Source: Chloroflexota bacterium (lineage in GTDB: Bacteria; Chloroflexota; Limnocylindria; Limnocylindrales; Limnocylindraceae). From it: DNA of 41,828 nt. The DNA is taken from positions 1-41,828 of the forward strand of contig QWQR01000006.1 in NCBI GenBank assembly GCA_003670745.1, in the 5' to 3' direction. This document shows positions 1 through 40,091 of this stretch, piece by piece (position 1 is the stretch's first letter; every line of letters begins with the position of its first letter). A program made the position numbers and the translations under genes. The notes below the pieces were generated by a model that saw nothing but the letters and a program-made list of their open reading frames with translations, searched no databases and was not told where the DNA came from.

Positions 1-289
1 AGCTCCCTGGCGGCGCAGCCTCTGGTGGGGTGAGCGCCTCGTTGGCCGGCCCCGACCAAATGATCGGTGTGGCGGGGGCATCGATCGGTTGCGCCGCCTC
101 GCGCGACGCCCAAGCAACGAATGCAGGACACGCGGTGAACCCTGGATCGAGGCAGTAACGCTCCTGCTGCGCCAGGTCGACCGGATTCGCGGGCTTCGAC
201 GCAAAGCAGGCGTGCGCGCGGTCAGGGATCGACGAGCGACGGGCAGGCTCGCCCGCGATCGCGAGGAATGGACAGACGGTCGCGCTCAT
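1..289 (-). CDS. Cys/His-motif protein, N-terminal part (runs off left edge)
   Basis: An ATG at 289 overlaps the TGA of the upstream acyltransferase gene (ATGA) and opens a frame that stays open to the window edge, giving 96 residues. The residues show an ordered set of cysteines and one histidine: CPFL at 6-9, then PDRAHAC at 22-28 (H26, C28), YCL at 45-47 (C46) and ACPAF at 53-57 (C54). This spacing resembles the small Cys/His module found at the N-terminus of secreted or LysM-type proteins in Chloroflexota. That family recall is from memory and the function is unknown. The metal-binding idea rests only on the Cys/His pattern. No signal peptide is visible. The overlap implies translation coupled to the acyltransferase. 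Confidence 0.72.
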   Translation of the reverse strand, partial: MSATVCPFLAIAGEPARRSSIPDRAHACFASKPANPVDLAQQERYCLDPGFTACPAFVAWASREAAQPIDAPATPIIWSGPANEALTPPEAAPPGS

Positions 290-1062
290 GTCGCCGATCC
301 TACCCCGCCGCCTACTCCGTTGCGCCAGATCTGCTCCATACGATCGGCGAGGGCATCGCTCCATGACGCGGCGAGCACCAACTCTTCGCGTGAGCCCGCG
401 GCGGGCGGCGCAGATCCTGCGGGCACGACCGTGAGATCGGCGAGGGCGATCACCTCGATGCGCGGCAGTCCAAATCGGCGATTGCGGAATCGAATGACGA
501 GCGGCACGATCGGTACTCCCGTGCGCAGCGAAATCACTGCGGCACCCGGCCGAAACTCAGCGAATCGATCCTTCGGTCCGCCGGTCCCGCCTTCAGGCAT
601 CACCGCGTAGTGCGCGCCCGCGGCGAAGACAGCCGTCGCTGCGGCCAGGTGCGTTTCGATTCCGCTCGCGCCGCGCCAGACCGGCAGCAGTCCGCCGAGT
701 CGACGCAACAGCGCGGCGCGCACGCGACCGCGCCCAACGAGGAACGGGCCGAGACCGAGCCACCAAATGCGCGGCTGCGCTGGTGCTGCAATGCCGATCG
801 CAAACGGCTCGAGGTAGCGACGATGTGGCGCGCCGATGAGCACACGCGACCCCGAGTGCGCGAGTCGGTCGAGCCCGACGCCTTGAACGCGCAGCCCAAA
901 GATCCACCCGACGGAACGAATGCTGATCCGCAGGAGCCGGTAGCCGGGACCGGCGGCGGCCCAGGGGCTCCTGCCAAGCCATGCGACCCCCTCCCCCGCT
1001 GAAGGAGGGGTCAGCGCGTCGGCGCTGTAGGTGGAGTACGCCCGAACCTTGCGCTCAGCCAT
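286..1062 (-). CDS. PlsC-like 1-acylglycerol-phosphate acyltransferase family protein
   Basis: A 258-residue protein of the lysophospholipid acyltransferase (PlsC/LPLAT) family, which transfers an acyl group to lysophosphatidate-type acceptors at the inner membrane face. The acyltransferase signature is present as APHRRYLEP, an HX4E variant of the usual HX4D. A PEGGTGGP block stands in for the EGTR motif, and is followed by the typical 'F.PGAAVISLRTGVPIVPLVIR' type segment. I chose the ATG at 1062. A longer frame to 1167 exists, but a TAGGGT box lies 7 nt before the ATG at 1062, matching the leaderless pattern seen elsewhere here. The true substrate is uncertain because both active-site blocks deviate from consensus. 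The gene overlaps the Cys/His-motif gene by 4 nt. Confidence 0.8.
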   Translation of the reverse strand: MAERKVRAYSTYSADALTPPSAGEGVAWLGRSPWAAAGPGYRLLRISIRSVGWIFGLRVQGVGLDRLAHSGSRVLIGAPHRRYLEPFAIGIAAPAQPRIWWLGLGPFLVGRGRVRAALLRRLGGLLPVWRGASGIETHLAAATAVFAAGAHYAVMPEGGTGGPKDRFAEFRPGAAVISLRTGVPIVPLVIRFRNRRFGLPRIEVIALADLTVVPAGSAPPAAGSREELVLAASWSDALADRMEQIWRNGVGGGVGSAT

Positions 1063-1069
1063 CGAGCGA

Positions 1070-1075
1070 ACCCTA
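1070..1075 (-). promoter_or_regulatory. -10-like TAGGGT box, probable leaderless promoter of the acyltransferase gene
   Basis: On the minus strand TAGGGT is followed by 7 nt and then the ATG at 1062, with no Shine-Dalgarno sequence between. A transcript starting about 7 nt after the box would begin at or next to the start codon. No convincing -35 is visible. Confidence 0.5.
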
Positions 1076-1157
1076 CACCGCGAGCGGCGGCGCGGGCGGA
1101 GGGTTACCGTGAGGGTGGCCGCTGACCGTGGCGGCGTACACATAAGGGGGGAATGGC

Positions 1158-1511
1158 ATGACGGCACTTGGCACGCTGGAGTTGGTACTCATTTTTGTTC
1201 ACCTGCTTGGCATGGCAGCGATCGTCGGTGGCTACTTTGCGGGAATCTCGTCAGCAACCAAGCGGCTGAGCGCTGGCATGGTCCACGGGACGCTCTTGCA
1301 GCTCGTGAGCGGCATAGCAATCCTAGGTGTTGAAATGGCAGAAAATTCACCGTACAGTCGTGCGAAATTTGGCGTCAAACTACTTATCGTCATCGTCGCA
1401 CTCTTGATCGCGTGGCCGCGCCGCCGAGCGGCCTCGGTGCCGGCAAGCACGTATCACGCTATCGGGCTCTTGGCTATCACGAACGTCGTGATCGCAATCT
1501 TTTGGAAGTAA
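1158..1511 (+). CDS. small four-helix integral membrane protein, unknown function
   Basis: A 117-residue protein that is almost entirely hydrophobic. Four likely membrane helices lie at about residues 6-28, 41-60, 71-88 and 97-115, with short charged loops such as WPRRRAA. I do not recognise a family. A purine-rich run (AAGGGGGG, 1144-1151) sits just upstream of the ATG and acts as the ribosome binding site. A TACCGT box at 1105-1110 could be its -10. The base composition is noticeably less GC-rich than its neighbours, for example the stretch near 1335-1375, which may mean a membrane-protein bias or an outside origin. It ends 28 nt before sodN and could share its transcript. Confidence 0.75.
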   Translation: MTALGTLELVLIFVHLLGMAAIVGGYFAGISSATKRLSAGMVHGTLLQLVSGIAILGVEMAENSPYSRAKFGVKLLIVIVALLIAWPRRRAASVPASTYHAIGLLAITNVVIAIFWK

Positions 1512-1539
1512 CGAATACATAGAGATGGAGGCAACTACG

Positions 1540-1965
1540 ATGCGTAACCTGATCAAGCTCCCGAAGTTCTCGCTCCCTGCAGTCGTTGAGGTGCACGCGC
1601 ACTGCGACGTGCCGTGCGGGATCTACGACCCAGCCGGTGCCGTCATCGCCGCGAAGACTGTCGCGCGCATGGTCGAGCTGATCGGCCAGATTGAGGTGAC
1701 CGACGTCGCCAGCCGCAACAAGTTTGTGCGCTGCGTCGAGGTGAAAGAGGAGCACGCCGAGAAGGTGAAGCACGAAGTCCAGATCATCTGGTCCGACTAC
1801 TTCAAGCCTGAGCACCTCGCCAAGGTCCCCGACCTCCACGACCAGGTCTGGAAGTTGCTGAAGCTCGCCTCGAAGAACAAGCAGAACGTCGACGCCGCTG
1901 CTGCGGCGGAGCTCGTGGCTGCAACCGAGGCCTTCGCCGCCTCGTTCGCTGCGTCGAAGGCGTAA
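1540..1965 (+). CDS. sodN: nickel superoxide dismutase
   Basis: A 141-residue nickel-type superoxide dismutase precursor, which dismutes superoxide to oxygen and peroxide using a Ni centre bound by the mature N-terminus. The nickel hook HCDVPCGIYDP starts at H21, giving His1 (H21), Cys2 (C22) and Cys6 (C26) of the mature enzyme. The 20-residue leader before it ends V-H-A, must be removed to free His1, and has no hydrophobic core. It therefore looks like a maturation propeptide rather than a secretion signal. The rest fits the family's four-helix bundle. I chose the ATG at 1540, not the one at 1525, because GGAGG (1527-1531) lies 8 nt before it. The maturation protease gene sodX follows 28 nt downstream. 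Confidence 0.96.
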   Translation: MRNLIKLPKFSLPAVVEVHAHCDVPCGIYDPAGAVIAAKTVARMVELIGQIEVTDVASRNKFVRCVEVKEEHAEKVKHEVQIIWSDYFKPEHLAKVPDLHDQVWKLLKLASKNKQNVDAAAAAELVAATEAFAASFAASKA

Positions 1966-1993
1966 CGCAGTAATTAATCGACGAGGCGAAGCG

Positions 1994-2365
1994 ATGCCTC
2001 GCGCGCGCCGCATCTGGCGCGCGATCGTCGTCGATCGATCGATGGAGCCGGCCCTCCGCGCGGAGGACCGGCTCCTCGTTTTACCCGCGGGCCCAGGAGG
2101 GCTCCCTTGGCTGCGCGGCGCGCCGCGCATCGGCAGCGTGGTGATCGTCGAGCGCGACGGCCGCCTCGACGTGAAGCGCGTTGGAGGGCTGCCAGGCGGC
2201 GAGCTGTGGCTGCTCGGCGATAACGCGGCGGCCTCGAGCGACTCACGGAGCTCTGGCCCCGTGCCGTTGAGCGCGCTGCGCGGCATCGTGGTGTGGCGGA
2301 GCGGACCACCCGGTCGACGCGGCCGAATTCCCAAACTTCGCGCGCGCACCGAAGCGTCCGCGTAG
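1994..2365 (+). CDS. sodX: nickel-type superoxide dismutase maturation protease
   Basis: A 123-residue S26 (signal peptidase-like) serine protease. It has the Ser-Lys dyad of the family: S16 in DRSMEP and K61 in DVKRV, followed by LLGDN (74-78) and the SSDSR/GPVP box (81-91). Unlike ordinary signal peptidases it has no N-terminal membrane anchor, which fits a cytoplasmic processing enzyme. Being next to sodN, it should cut the NiSOD leader after A20. The start is an ATG 28 nt after sodN with only a weak upstream GAGGCGAAG, so its translation may be lower than that of sodN. A long GC hairpin followed by a T-run lies inside its 5' coding region (2044-2082, listed separately). Confidence 0.92.
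   Translation: MPRARRIWRAIVVDRSMEPALRAEDRLLVLPAGPGGLPWLRGAPRIGSVVIVERDGRLDVKRVGGLPGGELWLLGDNAAASSDSRSSGPVPLSALRGIVVWRSGPPGRRGRIPKLRARTEASA
2044..2082 (+). terminator. terminator-like hairpin inside the 5' end of sodX
   Basis: GGAGCCGG (2044-2051) pairs with CCGGCTCC (2068-2075), and inside it CCTCC (2053-2057) pairs with GGAGG (2062-2066) around a GCGC loop. TCGTTTT follows at 2076-2082. The shape is that of an intrinsic terminator but it lies within codons about 17-30 of sodX. It may cut sodX expression relative to sodN. It may also be a by-product of GC-rich coding sequence. Confidence 0.4.
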
Positions 2366-2379
2366 CGACGCCGAACGGA

Positions 2380-3321
2380 CTAGAGGGAGGCCACGACCTC
2401 GGCGAGCAGGTCGAGCGGCTCGTCCTCGTTCGGCAGGAAGTGCTGTAGCAGCAGGCGCTGCGCCCCAGCATCGCGGAAGGCGCGGATGCGCTCCGCCGCC
2501 TCACTCGGCGTTCCAGTCACCCACCGCGCTCGTCGCGGCGCCATGTACGCCTCGGCGTCACCGGCGGCACCAACCCGCTCCATGAAGCGCGCGACCGAGT
2601 CAGCCAGGCTCGACGTATCGCGCCCGATGAGCATCCCCGTCATTGCCGATCGCGCCAGCGTCGCAGGGTCGCGACCCGCGGCACGACACGCCGCGTCGAG
2701 CGCAGCGAACTTTTCGCGCGCGGACTCGGGAGTTGCCGAGGTGACGTTGAACTCATCGGCGAACGCTGCTGCGATGCGCATGCCGCGCGGCGATCCCTCG
2801 CCGCCAGTGATCACGAACGGCGTGGGCTCAGGGCGCGACCGAAAGCGCGCATCGCTCACGTGATAGTGGCGACCATCAAACGACCAGCCGTCGCCGCCGG
2901 TCCAAAGGCCGCGCAGCACCGTGAGCTGCTCCTCGAGCATCTCCGCGCGCACCGGCATGTCGGGAAAATCAAAGCCGTGGCGACGGTGCTCCGACTCTTG
3001 CCACCCTGCGCCAAGGCCAACATGGATCTGGCGCCCCGCCATCTCCTGCACCGTGGCCGCGATCTTTGCGAGGTTCCCAGGGTGACGAAAGGTGACGGGG
3101 CTCACGAGCGTGCCGATCGCAATGCGCTGCGTCTCGCGAGCGATCCCCGCAAGCACGCTCCATGCATCGGTGGTGGGCTGATCATCGGGGCCCGGGAACG
3201 ACTCGTAGTGATCGGTGCGATAAAAGGCGGCGAAGCCGAGCGACTCGACGCGTTGCGCGAGGGCACGCTGTCGCTCGTAGGTAAGTCCCATCTGCCCTTC
3301 GATCACGATGCCGATCTGCAT
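2380..3321 (-). CDS. LLM-class (F420-dependent type) oxidoreductase
   Basis: A 313-residue TIM-barrel enzyme of the luciferase-like monooxygenase superfamily, the branch usually assigned to coenzyme F420-dependent oxidoreductases. It opens with MQIGIVIEGQMG and has the expected blocks: YRTDHYESF near 34-42, IAIGTLVSPVTFRHPGNLAK near residues 67-86, the VGLGAGWQESEH segment near 101-112, and FVITGGEGSPRGMRIAAAFADEFN. The length is normal. Substrate and cofactor cannot be read from sequence; FMN or F420 are both possible. The gene stands alone on the minus strand, converging with sodX and diverging from the exporter gene. A TAGCCT box lies 6 nt before its ATG. Confidence 0.88.
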   Translation of the reverse strand: MQIGIVIEGQMGLTYERQRALAQRVESLGFAAFYRTDHYESFPGPDDQPTTDAWSVLAGIARETQRIAIGTLVSPVTFRHPGNLAKIAATVQEMAGRQIHVGLGAGWQESEHRRHGFDFPDMPVRAEMLEEQLTVLRGLWTGGDGWSFDGRHYHVSDARFRSRPEPTPFVITGGEGSPRGMRIAAAFADEFNVTSATPESAREKFAALDAACRAAGRDPATLARSAMTGMLIGRDTSSLADSVARFMERVGAAGDAEAYMAPRRARWVTGTPSEAAERIRAFRDAGAQRLLLQHFLPNEDEPLDLLAEVVASL

Positions 3322-3327
3322 GGGTGC

Positions 3328-3333
3328 AGGCTA
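3328..3333 (-). promoter_or_regulatory. -10-like TAGCCT box before the LLM oxidoreductase
   Basis: TAGCCT on the minus strand, then 6 nt (GCACCC), then the ATG at 3321. No ribosome binding site is present, so a leaderless transcript is likely. Confidence 0.5.
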
Positions 3334-3394
3334 GCGGAGCGAGATCGCCGCCGACCATGAGCCCATCTCACGAGACGTGCCGCGGCACACTGGG

Positions 3395-3400
3395 TATAAT
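3395..3400 (+). promoter_or_regulatory. TATAAT -10 box of the DHA2 exporter gene
   Basis: A perfect TATAAT hexamer lies 57 nt before the exporter's ATG. A start point near 3407 would give a leader of about 50 nt containing the AGGAGGA ribosome binding site at 3447-3453. I see no clear -35 hexamer at the expected distance. Confidence 0.5.
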
Positions 3401-3457
3401 CGTTGCGTTGCGAACCATTGCGGGACCCCGCGAGGACGCTGAACGTAGGAGGACCCC

Positions 3458-5128
3458 ATGGCCACCAGCACACGACGCTCACCCGCGCGCGCCAAGGGCG
3501 CGAAGCGACCCGCCGCGCAAGGCGCTGCACCCGCACGAGGCGGCGGTAGCGCCATCTCGGCAAACCTCTCCCCCCGCGCCAAGCAGGGGATCGTGGTCGC
3601 GATCATGCTCGCCCTCTTCCTCGGCGCGCTCGACCAAACGATCGTCGGAACCGCGCTTCCGCGGATCATCACCGAGCTGAACGGCGCCAATCTCTACACC
3701 TGGGTCGTAACGATCTACCTGCTCGCAAGCACCGTGACGGTGCCGATCTACGGAAAGCTCTCCGACATGTACGGCCGCAAGCCGCTCCTCCTGATCGGCG
3801 TCGGCCTCTTCCTTGTCGGCTCGGCGCTCGCCGGGCTCTCGCAGAACATTGAGCAGCTGATCATCTTCCGCGGCATCCAGGGGCTCGGCGCCGGTGCGCT
3901 CTTCCCGATCGCCCTCGCCACCATCGGCGACCTCTTTAGCCCACAGGAGCGCGGACGCTACCAGGGGCTCTTCGGCGCCGTCTTCGGCCTCTCAAGCCTC
4001 ATCGGACCAGCACTCGGCGGCTGGCTCACCGACACGTTCAGCTGGCACCTCATCTTCTACGTCAACCTGCCAATCGGCCTTCTGAGCATTGCGATCATCC
4101 TGCTTGAGCTTCCAACGTTTAAGGGTCGAGCGAACCAGAAGATCGACTTCCTCGGCGCGATCGTCTTCGCCGCCGGCATCATTCCAGTACTCATCGGATT
4201 GACGAACGTGCAGAGCAACGCCTTCGCTACCCCAGAGGTTGCAGGGCTGATTTCAGCGGGCCTCGCCATCCTCTGCCTCTTCCTCTTTATTGAGGCGAAG
4301 GCGGAAGAGCCGATCATCCCGCTTGAACTCTTCAAGAACCGTACGTTTGCGGCGGCGGCGGCGGCGACCTTCTTCGCCTCGTTTGGCTTCTTCGCCTCCA
4401 TCATCTTCTTGCCGCGCTACTTCCAGACCGTGCTCGGCGAGACGGCGACCAACTCTGGCTACGCCACGCTTCCGCTCCTGCTCGGCGTGATCATCAGTTC
4501 CATTAGCGCAGGGCAGATGGTGGCGCGACGGGGTCGCTACAAGTCGCTCATCCTCGGCGCGATCGTGCTCGTCACATTGGGGTCGCTCCTGCTCACAAAT
4601 ATCAAGGCAGATACCGACCCGTGGGTGCTGCGCGGATGGATGTTCCTCGCCGGTCTCGGCGTTGGGCCAACCCTCTCGGTATTCACCATCGTGGTGCAGA
4701 ACGCAGTGCCGTTTAAGTTCCTCGGCGCCGCAACGTCAAACCTCACCTTCTTCCGCCAGGTTGGCGGCTCCGTGGGGCTCGCCATCGTTGGCTCCTACTT
4801 CGGTGGGCAGCTAACGACCACCATTCCGAAGGAGCTTGCCGCGGCGGCTCCGGTGGGAACCTTTGACGCATTCTTTGCCGCAACGGGCGGCAATCTTGAT
4901 CAGTTGACGAACGTTGGCGGAAAGTTTGATCCCGCCCTCCTCGCGCTGATCCCAGGAGAATTTGTTGATGTCTTCTTCAACGCAATCAAGGCGGGGATTG
5001 CCGATGCGATCGGCTCGATCTTCTGGCTTGCCGTGGTAGCAAGCCTTGTTGCACTTGTTGCCGCGACGTTGATTGAGGAGATCCCGCTCCGCTCGCGCGC
5101 GGGGGCAGGGGCACCAACCGAGCTGTGA
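3458..5128 (+). CDS. DHA2-family MFS multidrug-type exporter (EmrB/QacA-like, 14 helices)
   Basis: A 556-residue major facilitator superfamily protein of the drug:H+ antiporter-2 type. After a basic, disordered 40-residue N-terminus (Arg/Ala/Lys-rich) the first helix carries ALDQTIVGTALPRI, the DHA2 helix-1 signature with its Asp. The loop between helices 2 and 3 has motif A (GKLSDMYGRKP), and GPALGGWL matches the antiporter motif C. The length and helix count fit 14 membrane spans. A long hydrophilic insertion near residues 440-490 carries a Gly/Phe-rich stretch. The likely role is proton-driven efflux of drugs or amphiphilic compounds; the substrate is unknown. AGGAGGA precedes the start. 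The stop overlaps the GTG of the next gene (GTGA), so the two are translationally coupled. Confidence 0.9.
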   Translation: MATSTRRSPARAKGAKRPAAQGAAPARGGGSAISANLSPRAKQGIVVAIMLALFLGALDQTIVGTALPRIITELNGANLYTWVVTIYLLASTVTVPIYGKLSDMYGRKPLLLIGVGLFLVGSALAGLSQNIEQLIIFRGIQGLGAGALFPIALATIGDLFSPQERGRYQGLFGAVFGLSSLIGPALGGWLTDTFSWHLIFYVNLPIGLLSIAIILLELPTFKGRANQKIDFLGAIVFAAGIIPVLIGLTNVQSNAFATPEVAGLISAGLAILCLFLFIEAKAEEPIIPLELFKNRTFAAAAAATFFASFGFFASIIFLPRYFQTVLGETATNSGYATLPLLLGVIISSISAGQMVARRGRYKSLILGAIVLVTLGSLLLTNIKADTDPWVLRGWMFLAGLGVGPTLSVFTIVVQNAVPFKFLGAATSNLTFFRQVGGSVGLAIVGSYFGGQLTTTIPKELAAAAPVGTFDAFFAATGGNLDQLTNVGGKFDPALLALIPGEFVDVFFNAIKAGIADAIGSIFWLAVVASLVALVAATLIEEIPLRSRAGAGAPTEL

Positions 5129-36060: not shown

Positions 36061-36614
36061 CGCTTCACCTGCTCCTCTATGGACCCGCTTCCGCGGGACA
36101 TGACTACGGAGCCAGTTCGCACCAGCTCCTTGATTCCAAACTCCCGGAGGAGCTCGACCAGTCGGTCGACCTCGCCAGGCTCACCGATCGCTTCGACGAC
36201 GACCGCATCATCGCCCAGGTCAACGACCCGGCCGTGATGCATCTCTGCGACGCTGACGATCTCGGGTCGATTGCGCTTCGTCGCGCGCACCTTAATAAGG
36301 GCGAGCTCGTGCTCCACGATCGAGTCGTCGGTCACGTCTTGGACCTTCAACACGTCGATGAGCTTGTAGAGCTGCTTCGCCGCCTGCTCCACGTGCACCT
36401 CGTCGCCGAGGATCGTGAGGGTCATGCGCGACGTGCCCGGATCGTCGGTCGCCGAAACGGCGAGCGACTCAATGTTGAAGTTGCGCGCGCGCATAAGGCT
36501 GGCGACGCGATTCAGCACACCCGGGCGGTTGTTCACGATCGCCACGATCAGGTGGCGGCGTGCCTCGCCCGATCCTGGAAGGCTGCGTGCTGGCGCCTGG
36601 CTGCTCGGGGTCAT
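36057..36614 (-). CDS. ilvN: acetolactate synthase small (regulatory) subunit
   Basis: A 185-residue regulatory subunit that activates IlvB and gives valine feedback. The N-terminal ACT domain has [20 protein letters not shown], then [23 protein letters not shown]. The second, ACT-like part starts around [20 protein letters not shown]. The length is normal for a two-domain IlvN/IlvH (some genomes use the name ilvH). A Ser/Ala/Pro-rich N-terminal extension of about 20 residues precedes the fold. It overlaps both neighbours by ATGA, which keeps subunits in step. Confidence 0.94.
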
Positions 36615-38524
36615 CGCGCCGCCCCTCCGCTTCCAGAGCCGTCGGCGGGATCGGCCGGATCGCGGCGCGGACCGCTCGCGCCGTCGGTCACGTCTTCGCC
36701 GTCATCGCCCCACTTGTCGATGAGGTCGGAGAGCCCCTTTCCGGCGGGCATCATCGGATACACATTCTGTCGCTCGGCGATCTCGAACCAGATCATCGCC
36801 GGTCCATCGACCGCGTTCGCGGATGCAACTGCGGCATCGACCTCTTCAGGCTTCGAGACCTTCCAGGCGGGAACGCCGTACGCCTCGCAAAGCTTCAAGT
36901 AATCAGGGCCGTTCAGCTGCTCAGAGTGGTAGTTGCCGGCGTAGACGATCTCCTGCCACTGTCGAATCATCCCGAGCTTCTTGTTGTCGAGCAGCGCGAT
37001 CTTTACCGGAATCTTTTCTTGCACGATCGTCGCCAACTCCTGCAGCGTCATTTGGAAACCGCCATCACCGGCGATCGCCCACGAGCGCTTCTCGGGAACA
37101 GCGACTGCGGCGCCCATCGCGGCGGGGAGTGCAAAGCCCATCGTGCCGAGCCCGCCCGACGAGAGGTGCGAGTTGGTGCGGCGGAAGCCGCCGTAGCGCG
37201 CCACCCACATCTGGTTCTGGCCAACGTCGGCGGTGAGGTTGGCGTCGTGGTCGCAGCCTGCAGCGATCCGATCGACCACGAAGTCGGCGGAGAGGACCCC
37301 ATCGCGCCAGCCGCCCGACCCATGCCATGGCGACTCGACGCTCTCGGCGCGCCAGGTGGCGAGTTCTGCGAAGAGCGCGGCACGACGCGATGCGTCGACC
37401 GTATCGATGAGCGGAAGCAGGGCGCCGAGCACGCTCTTCGCGTCGCCAACAACGGGAATATCGGCGACGACGTTCTTGCCGATCTCGGCCGGATCAATGT
37501 CGACATGCACGATGCGCGCCTTCGGCGCGAAGGTGCGCACGTTTCCGGTCACGCGATCGTCAAAGCGCATCCCCACCGCAAGGATCAGGTCGGCGGATTG
37601 GATCGCGCGGTTCGCGTGCTTCCAGCCGTGCATCCCCATGTAGCCGTAGGCGAGCGGGTCGCGCTCATCGATCGCGCCGATCCCGAGCAGCGTCCAGGCG
37701 ACGGGGATCTGCGCCTTGCGTGCGAGCGCGAGCAGCTCGGTTTCGGCGTGCGAGATCAGAATCCCGTGCCCAACGAGGAGCATCGGGCGCTCTGCCGCGG
37801 TGATCGCCTCAGCGACGCTCTTGAGCTGTCGTGGATGTCCTTCCATCTTCGGGCGGTACCCCGGAAGTCCGGCGAGCACCTCCTCGTCGCTCGGATGCGG
37901 CGCCGACGTTTGGCCCATGAGCGCGTCCTTGGTGATGTCGACGTGCACTGGTCCGGGTCGTCCGCTCCGCGCAATATGGAACGCCTCGGCGACCACAGCG
38001 GGAATCTCATCGGCGCTGCGCACCAAATAGTTGTGCTTCGTCATTGGCAGGGTGATGCCCGTGATGTCGATCTCTTGAAAGGCATCCTTACCAAGGAGCG
38101 CGCCGGGAACGTTCCCGGTGATCACCACCATCGGCACCGAATCGAGCATCGCGGTGCCGATCCCGGTGACAAGGTTGGTGGCGCCGGGGCCGGAGGTGCC
38201 GAGGCAGACACCAACGCGACCGGATGCGCGCGCGTAGCCGTCGGCGGCGTGCGCCGCCCCCTGCTCGTGGCGCACGAGGATGTGTCGCAGCTTCGGATGA
38301 TCGGCGAGCACGTCATAGAGCGGAAGGATCACGCCGCCGGGGTAGCCCCACATCACGTCGCTCCCCTGGCGCAGCAGCGCCTCGCAGAGTGCGTCGGCAC
38401 CGATGCGCGGTCGCGCACCGTCGCGCGAATCAATGCGCGCGTCACGGAGCATCTCCTTGCGCGCGCGCTCGGACTCCGCCGCAGCGGCGGTCCCCGCGCC
38501 TGGAACGTGCCCAATCTGCGTCAT
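36611..38524 (-). CDS. ilvB: acetolactate synthase large (catalytic) subunit
   Basis: A 637-residue thiamine-diphosphate enzyme making acetolactate from two pyruvates, or acetohydroxybutyrate with 2-oxobutyrate. ALLRQGSDVMWGYPGGVILPLYD contains the GYPGG turn near the TPP Glu, VRHEQGAAHAADGYARASGRVGV and GTSGPGATNLVTG follow, and GDGGFQMTLQELATIVQ starts the metal/TPP motif that ends in DNKKLGMIRQWQ. About 45 extra residues precede the fold. The ATG at 38524 has a good ribosome binding site (AAAGGAG); the frame opens at 38548, but that portion lies in the attenuator. It is the first structural gene of the operon. Confidence 0.96.
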   Translation of the reverse strand: MTQIGHVPGAGTAAAAESERARKEMLRDARIDSRDGARPRIGADALCEALLRQGSDVMWGYPGGVILPLYDVLADHPKLRHILVRHEQGAAHAADGYARASGRVGVCLGTSGPGATNLVTGIGTAMLDSVPMVVITGNVPGALLGKDAFQEIDITGITLPMTKHNYLVRSADEIPAVVAEAFHIARSGRPGPVHVDITKDALMGQTSAPHPSDEEVLAGLPGYRPKMEGHPRQLKSVAEAITAAERPMLLVGHGILISHAETELLALARKAQIPVAWTLLGIGAIDERDPLAYGYMGMHGWKHANRAIQSADLILAVGMRFDDRVTGNVRTFAPKARIVHVDIDPAEIGKNVVADIPVVGDAKSVLGALLPLIDTVDASRRAALFAELATWRAESVESPWHGSGGWRDGVLSADFVVDRIAAGCDHDANLTADVGQNQMWVARYGGFRRTNSHLSSGGLGTMGFALPAAMGAAVAVPEKRSWAIAGDGGFQMTLQELATIVQEKIPVKIALLDNKKLGMIRQWQEIVYAGNYHSEQLNGPDYLKLCEAYGVPAWKVSKPEEVDAAVASANAVDGPAMIWFEIAERQNVYPMMPAGKGLSDLIDKWGDDGEDVTDGASGPRRDPADPADGSGSGGAAR

Positions 38525-38550
38525 CGCGCTCCTTTCCCCTGAGAACACGA

Positions 38551-38575
38551 AACCCCCGCCTCGTTGGCGGGGGTT
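38551..38575 (-). terminator. terminator arm of the ilvB attenuator
   Basis: On the minus strand AACCCCCGCC (38566-38575) and GGCGGGGGTT (38551-38560) form a perfect 10-bp stem around AACGA, followed by a moderately T-rich TTCGTGTTCT. It lies between the leader peptide stop and the ilvB ribosome binding site. The upstream GGCGGGG (38624-38630) is complementary to CCCCGCC in its first arm and could prevent it forming. Confidence 0.7.
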
Positions 38576-38822: not shown

Positions 38823-40091
38823 CTAGAGGACATCGTGGGCGCGCTTCACGATCGGGCGATCCATGCGGAACGGCTCGTCGGCCACGGCGCTGCGGCCGAT
38901 CAGCAGGTCGACGGCGCGACGAGCACCCCCCGCAGAGCACATCACCCCGTGCCCGGAGTAGCCGGTGTTGACGTGCAGCCCAGCAAGCGCGGTGGGTCCA
39001 AGGAGCGGGCGATGGTCGGGGGTGTACTCGTACTGCCCCGCCATCAGGTGCCACGACGGCACGCCGCGGCGCCAGACCTCGCCCCAGAACGGCGCGAGGT
39101 TCGCGAGCGCGCTCGGTGATGCGGGGTCGAGGAGCGCCGTGGCGTATGCGGCGTCAGTCGGCACCTCAAGGAGCGGCTCGCCCACTGGTGTCGCCGGATC
39201 GGTGCGCAGCGCGTAGCAGCCGGCGAGCGCCGGTCGCCAGTGCGAACCGGTCTCGTCGTCGATCGTCATTGGCGCGGACTGATCAATATCAGGAAGTTCG
39301 GGGATGACGAGCTTCTGGCGAATCGTTGGAGCGATCGGCACGTCGATGCCGGCGATCGCGCCAACGACGCCGCTCCACGGTCCAGCGGCGATCAGCGTGT
39401 TCGCGGCGTGCACCGTGCCACGGCTCGTCTCGACACCGATCACAGCGCCGCTGACACCCGCTCCGTCGCGCACGAACCCGTGCACTTCGACGCCGAGTGC
39501 AAACTGTGCGCCGCCGCCAGGGAGCGCATCGGGGATGCGGTCGGCGTTTGAGGCGGCGGTTGCGTAGCCGCGCGCGAGCGCGATCTGATCGATGAATCCG
39601 TCGCCTGCGCGAAAGCGCGCCTGAATGATTGACGGTGCGAGCATCGGCCAACGGCGTCGCACCTCATCGCCGTCGATGAGCTCCACGTCGGTGAGCCCAA
39701 AGCCGCGTTGCAGCGCAACGAGCTCGCGCGCGCGCGCGGCGCTCGCCTCACTCCGCGCGCAGAAGAGATACCCCTGCTGCCGAATCCCAAGGTCCCAGCC
39801 ATCGAGCCCGGTGCGCGCCGCGAAGTCGAGATAGAGGTCAACCCCCTCGCGCACGAGCGCCAACTCTTCGGCGTTGTCGTGTTGCAATCGAAACGCTCCG
39901 GTTGCCGCGGCGGTGGTGAGCGAGGCGATCTCTGCGCGCCGCTCCACCACGAGTACCTGGAGTCCGGCACGCGCGGCATAAAAGGCGGTCGCGGCGCCAG
40001 CAATCCCGCCGCCAACAACGATCAGGTCGACGCGCGAAGGGAGCGCCCCGTCGACAACGCGCAGCTCTGTGCTCACCCCTGCGCCAGTCAT
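38823..40091 (-). CDS. FAD-dependent amine/amino-acid oxidase (DAO / sarcosine oxidase-like)
   Basis: A 422-residue flavoprotein of the D-amino-acid oxidase superfamily. The FAD-binding Rossmann motif is VVGGGIAGAATAFYAARAGLQVLVVE. TTAAATGAFRLQHDN follows, where the DAO/sarcosine oxidase family often has its second FAD segment. Near the C-terminus QYEYTPDHRPLLGPT and GLHVNTGYSGHGVMCSAGGARRAVDLL match the substrate/FAD end. It probably oxidises a secondary amine or amino acid; the exact one is unknown. It starts 14 nt after the KDPG-aldolase-like gene's stop, suggesting a two-gene operon. Its end is followed by the ilv leader. Confidence 0.86.
   Translation of the reverse strand: MTGAGVSTELRVVDGALPSRVDLIVVGGGIAGAATAFYAARAGLQVLVVERRAEIASLTTAAATGAFRLQHDNAEELALVREGVDLYLDFAARTGLDGWDLGIRQQGYLFCARSEASAARARELVALQRGFGLTDVELIDGDEVRRRWPMLAPSIIQARFRAGDGFIDQIALARGYATAASNADRIPDALPGGGAQFALGVEVHGFVRDGAGVSGAVIGVETSRGTVHAANTLIAAGPWSGVVGAIAGIDVPIAPTIRQKLVIPELPDIDQSAPMTIDDETGSHWRPALAGCYALRTDPATPVGEPLLEVPTDAAYATALLDPASPSALANLAPFWGEVWRRGVPSWHLMAGQYEYTPDHRPLLGPTALAGLHVNTGYSGHGVMCSAGGARRAVDLLIGRSAVADEPFRMDRPIVKRAHDVL

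Follow-up and report, generated by a model that had tools for sequence, protein, structure and literature searches.

The sodN-sodX locus and hairpin HP2

The window, by which we mean the whole 41,828-nucleotide stretch of DNA analyzed, comes from a 1.0-Mb genome (81% complete) of a Limnocylindrus-type member of the Chloroflexota, whose nearest named relatives are MAGs of Candidatus Limnocylindrus and Candidatus Aquidulcis, mostly derived from lakes. In the reduced genomes of the Limnocylindraceae, spacers have a median length of 12 bp, and synonymous codons in these Chloroflexota have drifted from G+C-rich toward A+T-rich (PMC13212565); the same paper lists 14 basal and 85 younger Limnocylindrus MAGs. 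On the forward strand, sodN (positions 1525 to 1965), the upstream gene of the pair, encodes a nickel superoxide dismutase precursor with the HCDVPCG nickel hook (TIGR02753, 151 bits against a cut-off of 90; PF09055). The ATG of sodX lies at 1994, 28 nt past the sodN stop codon, and this gene (1994 to 2365, forward strand) encodes an S26-type protease (PF10502, E = 2.8e-11), with Ser16 (codon 2039 to 2041) as the nucleophile and SodN as the presumed substrate. Since the TIGR02754 score is under its cut-off (42.5 versus 63.25 bits), the name sodX is based on the S26 fold family and on the adjacency to sodN; with such a score here, the NCBIfam SodX model (Ni-SOD maturation protease) may miss the Limnocylindrales. 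In 15 congeners, the two genes lie side by side and point the same way. A luciferase-like gene on the reverse strand (2380 to 3321) is convergent to sodX and leaves only 14 bp (2366 to 2379) between them, so a shared transcript of sodN and sodX would have to end in coding or antisense sequence. A rho gene was also found in the source genome.

Within sodX, a hairpin that we call HP2 occupies positions 2044 to 2075 of the forward strand (codons 17 to 28) and starts 79 nt past the sodN stop codon. Its outer 5' arm, GGAGCCGG (2044 to 2051), forms 8 bp with the outer 3' arm, CCGGCTCC (2068 to 2075), which holds most of a rare Arg codon, CGG (2069 to 2071). After a C.A mismatch (C2052.A2067), the inner arms CCTCC (2053 to 2057) and GGAGG (2062 to 2066) add 5 bp around a GCGC loop (2058 to 2061), and a U-rich tail, TCGTTTTA (2076 to 2083), holding a very rare Leu codon, TTA, follows. 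The original prediction had described precisely this 8-bp plus 5-bp stem, loop, and tail, and the sequence bears it out at exactly that place. The stem does lie about 50 nt into sodX, as proposed (it starts 50 nt past the ATG), but it is not confined to the codons after Met-Glu-Pro, since it overlaps the Met-Glu-Pro codons themselves.

HP2 has a predicted folding energy of -30.4 kcal/mol (z = -4.8), equaled by none of 200 dinucleotide shuffles, and is the most stable 42-nt fold among 13,929 forward-strand windows of the 41.8-kb sequence. It is also the top site on either strand that combines a stem with at least five T in the next eight positions (-26.7, with the runner-up at -21.5). As the peptide is fixed, synonymous recoding is the right null; using the codon usage of 28 genes of the window, 0.085% of 20,000 recodings of the HP2 peptide were as stable (p = 0.00085), a value that would not be decisive alone in a G+C-rich genome. 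The stem could, in principle, be a functionless by-product of the protein motif and of G+C-rich codons, with SMEPAL..GDRLL spelling GAGCCGG...CCGGCTC by chance. The amino acids do fix approximately half of each arm, the motif written in random codons averages -14.7 kcal/mol, and many hairpins in the GC-rich window reach -24 kcal/mol or less. Other S26 genes, taken as a control for the motif, had no comparable hairpin, with only two of them usable (-11.1 and -17.1 kcal/mol).

Over positions 1 to 5000, a simple terminator scanner called no site, presumably since it accepts perfect stems only and HP2 has a mismatch, and Rfam returned only sub-threshold matches, none above the gathering score. A repeat element was also considered and rejected, as a pattern search of 19 congeners found one site per genome, at sodX only.

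Conservation of HP2 within the genus

The genus set comprised 15 genomes with a readable sodX, the source genome included, of which 10 read SMEPAL...DRLL and 5 read SM[AT]PT. All ten SMEPAL...DRLL genomes have HP2 with 13 of 13 pairs intact, and the outer 5' arm is identical across them. The check that the original prediction had pointed to, whether synonymous sites of the stem are conserved among related sodX genes, was clearly positive in these ten genomes: 8 of 9 third codon positions in the stem do not vary, compared with 5 of 89 over the remainder of the gene (Fisher p = 7e-8), and the highest value that any ten-codon stretch of sodN reaches in these genomes is 5 of 10. On a tree built without the stem codons, parsimony required 0.11 changes per third-position site in the stem, against 2.42 elsewhere in sodX and 1.86 in sodN; nine sites drawn at random never gave a value as low as the stem in 200,000 draws. 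When only columns with an invariant amino acid were compared, 6 of 7 stem sites were unchanged versus 25 of 146 elsewhere (p = 2.7e-4). Eight of the ten genomes are near relatives, which weakens these p-values; the window and G009, although distant both from those eight and from one another, match the others at the stem. The stem was set beforehand from one sequence, before the relatives were compared, and was therefore not picked to fit them.

The invariance is limited to the arms. Between the window and the Aquidulcis group, 15 to 20 of 30 to 34 comparable third positions differ outside the stem, and 0 or 1 of 7 to 8 inside it. The loop codon varies (CGC, CTT, or CTC, with TTCC, TCCC, TTGC, or TCTC as the loop in relatives) while both arms stay fixed, and the codons flanking the stem vary as well; because this variation is free, we rejected the idea that the segment was recently transferred or gene-converted. 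The Arg codon CGG is fixed in 10 of 10 genomes, though it makes up just 7.2% of Arg codons here. No compensatory double changes were found within HP2 in the ten genomes, as no pair has more than one side that can change synonymously. These patterns of substitution suggest, with good confidence, that the constraint acts on the nucleic-acid structure and is no by-product of the protein motif. The chance origin described above, which predicts neither invariance restricted to the arms nor a fixed rare codon in a gene where about half of the third positions differ elsewhere, appears largely refuted, and we consider it highly improbable. The HP2 structure itself is very probably under selection in this clade.

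Of all third positions in the stem only C2053 changes, to T in G013, where a U.G pair remains, and nine relatives carry G2064, so that the inner 3' arm reads GGGGG and is again paired through U.G. Both changes preserve pairing in a forward-strand RNA and would give A.C mismatches on the reverse strand. Since most of the U.G pattern is dictated by the protein, the lone synonymous case provides only modest evidence that HP2 acts as a forward-strand RNA. It bears on another explanation, that of a DNA-level palindrome, which would serve a regulator as its operator or be kept through antisense transcription of the luciferase-like gene. The complement of HP2 could indeed form a 14-bp stem with one G.U, and the neighboring gene at 2380 to 3321 is convergent. 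However, besides the A.C mismatches, the reverse-strand side lacks a U-tract, and where relatives lack HP2 their hairpins are unrelated in sequence, which would be odd for a binding site. We therefore regard an action at the DNA level as very unlikely.

Hairpins at the sodX start and in more distant relatives

Two further hairpins are predicted by folding on the forward strand at the start of sodX. HP1, CGCGCGCC-GCATCT-GGCGCGCG (2002 to 2023; codons 3 to 10), is a second strong hairpin just upstream of HP2, and a hairpin is found at its place in all 15 genus members, in two sequence versions. The case for HP1 as an equally constrained element is weak, with synonymous-recoding p values from 0.006 to 0.33 across the genus. 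A smaller hairpin, CGAGGC...GCCTCG (1982 to 2001; fold only), would tie up a Shine-Dalgarno-like GAGG together with the sodX start codon, and translational coupling of sodX to sodN is possible.

Relatives that encode a similar protein but lack the stem, which the original prediction had named as evidence against it, do exist, yet their sodX start is covered by another strong hairpin, upstream of the HP2 site. The five SM[AT]PT congeners (L003, L004, L005, L006, and L009) form no stem at the HP2 site (-7 to -10 kcal/mol); in each, a 17- to 19-bp hairpin, the counterpart of HP1, spans the sodX start (-33 to -36 kcal/mol in 46 nt). In all four of these congeners that were tested, no fold of the locus is stronger than this hairpin, and HP2 holds that rank in 9 of the 10 stem-bearing loci. 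The start hairpin occurs in two distinct versions that differ at three paired positions, all of which are still paired.

These start-region hairpins, over the start codon in the five congeners, could suggest that HP2 is instead a translational element, with a stem that slows ribosomes past the first 17 codons or that, together with the upstream hairpins, tunes initiation at sodX and its coupling to sodN. Such an effect predicts the same conservation as an attenuator. However, HP2 starts well inside sodX, past what is generally taken as the initiation footprint, and nothing known of SodX calls for a pause there, so we hold a translational role to be rather unlikely.

Beyond the genus, the junction was compared in a sister family of the same order, with larger genomes. 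Thirteen loci (L019, L020, L022, L023, L028, L056, L088, L096, L098 to L101, and L103) have a GACGCCGGAG...CTCCGGCGTC-type hairpin 20 to 97 nt past the sodN stop codon, in which 130 of 130 pair cells are paired. Two compensatory pair changes were seen: one G-C is flipped to C-G, and in two genomes one A-U is replaced by G-C. Relative to sodX, the stem falls in three reading frames and yields unrelated peptides. Several of these hairpins are unexceptional against shuffles in very G+C-rich DNA; as the shuffle tests were mostly unimpressive, the argument is built on pairing, frames, and compensatory changes, and by these the sister-family hairpin is a case of nucleic-acid conservation. Its core is single copy in both genomes with an exact match. 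Some other loci of the family (L017, L021, L024, L029, and L031) have no perfect stem of at least 9 bp at the sodN-sodX junction. Judging from the loci compared, a junction hairpin is common and not universal, and its place and sequence turn over. Some other Chloroflexota, for example L113, L120, and L128, carry classical terminators with long stems and long U-tracts right after sodN, and no sodX motif was recognized directly behind sodN there.

A putative attenuator and its known counterparts

HP2 is a stable, G+C-rich predicted stem-loop of the kind found in intrinsic terminators. Its U-tract is interrupted (UCGUUUUA), with 4 to 5 U in 8 positions across the ten genomes. In the window, the tail codons are GTT TTA, and TTA accounts for 0.4% of Leu codons; the same codon is CTT in 9 of 10 genomes. 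The lone clear intergenic terminator-like hairpin of the window, ACCCCCGCC-AACGA-GGCGGGGGT followed by TTCGTGTTCT (38552 to 38574, reverse strand), lies between the genes at 38823 to 40091 and 36611 to 38548, and its tail, TTCGTGTT, is broken much like that of HP2. Termination hairpins with weak U-tracts are reportedly frequent in many bacteria (PMC8355165), and a weak U-tract is likewise reported for a Streptomyces SOD terminator (PMC3919588). In a survey of termination hairpins, 98% of sites fell in an 80-nt zone (PMC8355165), and HP2, at 79 nt, is at its edge.

A junction function that needs a strong hairpin, with no set sequence or exact place, is suggested by its fit to all of the comparisons. 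On balance, we slightly favor the view that HP2 works at the RNA level as a functional structure within the sodN-sodX transcript, acting as a partial intrinsic terminator (attenuator) or as a 3'-end-forming hairpin, and among single mechanisms attenuation, the idea put forward in the original prediction, would be the best, with roughly even chances. The RNA polymerase leaving sodN would meet the HP2 stem and its short U-rich tail, where a share of the transcripts would end, giving a sodN mRNA, while the remainder would read through into sodX. The protease SodX would consequently be made in smaller amounts than its substrate, SodN. A ribosome translating the start of sodX and closely trailing the polymerase might melt the stem and thereby favor read-through.

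The main rival to termination is a role of HP2 as an mRNA stabilizer or processing site, likened to that in segmental-stability operons. Once the joint transcript had been cut within sodX, the hairpin would block 3'-to-5' exonucleases, and the sodN part would outlive the sodX part without any termination. The same conservation evidence applies to it, the weak U-tract agrees with it, and junction hairpins of differing sequence in relatives are what a structure-only function allows. Stabilization, however, requires an unseen endonuclease site and leaves unexplained the U-rich tail, both as GTT TTA in the window and with CTT in the other genomes; we judge it unlikely, if less so than the translational role. 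Termination is favored because of this tail, with its rare TTA, and because of the equally broken tail at 38552 to 38574.

The position of the element inside coding sequence may be accounted for by the spacers of about 12 bp in this streamlined lineage, and the five congeners with a start hairpin, together with the sister-family hairpins, fit a junction attenuator whose site moves. We tentatively propose, as a conjecture that we rate below even, that genome streamlining in the Limnocylindraceae pushed a sodN-sodX attenuator hairpin from a shrinking spacer into coding sequence. Lineages would have settled differently, in the active-site codons or in the start-codon region, and a protein motif and an RNA stop signal would share the same nucleotides. 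If true, the ratio of an enzyme to its maturase could be set without spending intergenic DNA, codons of a catalytic motif could hold a second, RNA-level message, and streamlined genomes may hide terminators inside genes, where they could be traced by synonymous-site conservation.

Among the papers searched, those on intra-operon stoichiometry held nothing directly on point, and none gave an account of the control of the SodN:SodX ratio. The portion of the Streptomyces sodF/sodN/Nur account considered here (PMC3919588) does not describe a junction hairpin inside sodX. That circuit shares with our model the control of Ni-SOD at the RNA level, and there an sRNA derived from sodF pairs with the 5' end of the sodN mRNA. 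The s-SodF terminator of Streptomyces coelicolor (PMC3919588) and hairpin terminators with a weak or no U-tract (PMC8355165) resemble HP2 in their strong, G+C-rich stems and few U residues; they lie past stop codons, whereas HP2 lies in an open reading frame. In E. coli, ORF-internal RNA 3' ends and premature termination have been mapped, with intrinsic termination producing some of these ends (PMC7815308), whereas HP2 was inferred from evolutionary conservation in uncultured Chloroflexota. HP2 also resembles intra-operon intrinsic (Rho-independent) attenuators, in which a G+C-rich stem-loop and a U-rich stretch likewise stand between a product required in bulk and a downstream gene of which little is needed. 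Unlike these, HP2 lies within the active-site codons of the downstream gene and has a short, interrupted U-tract, and its role in termination is putative. Overall, this kind of element is already known, and the new part is a junction hairpin embedded in coding sequence.
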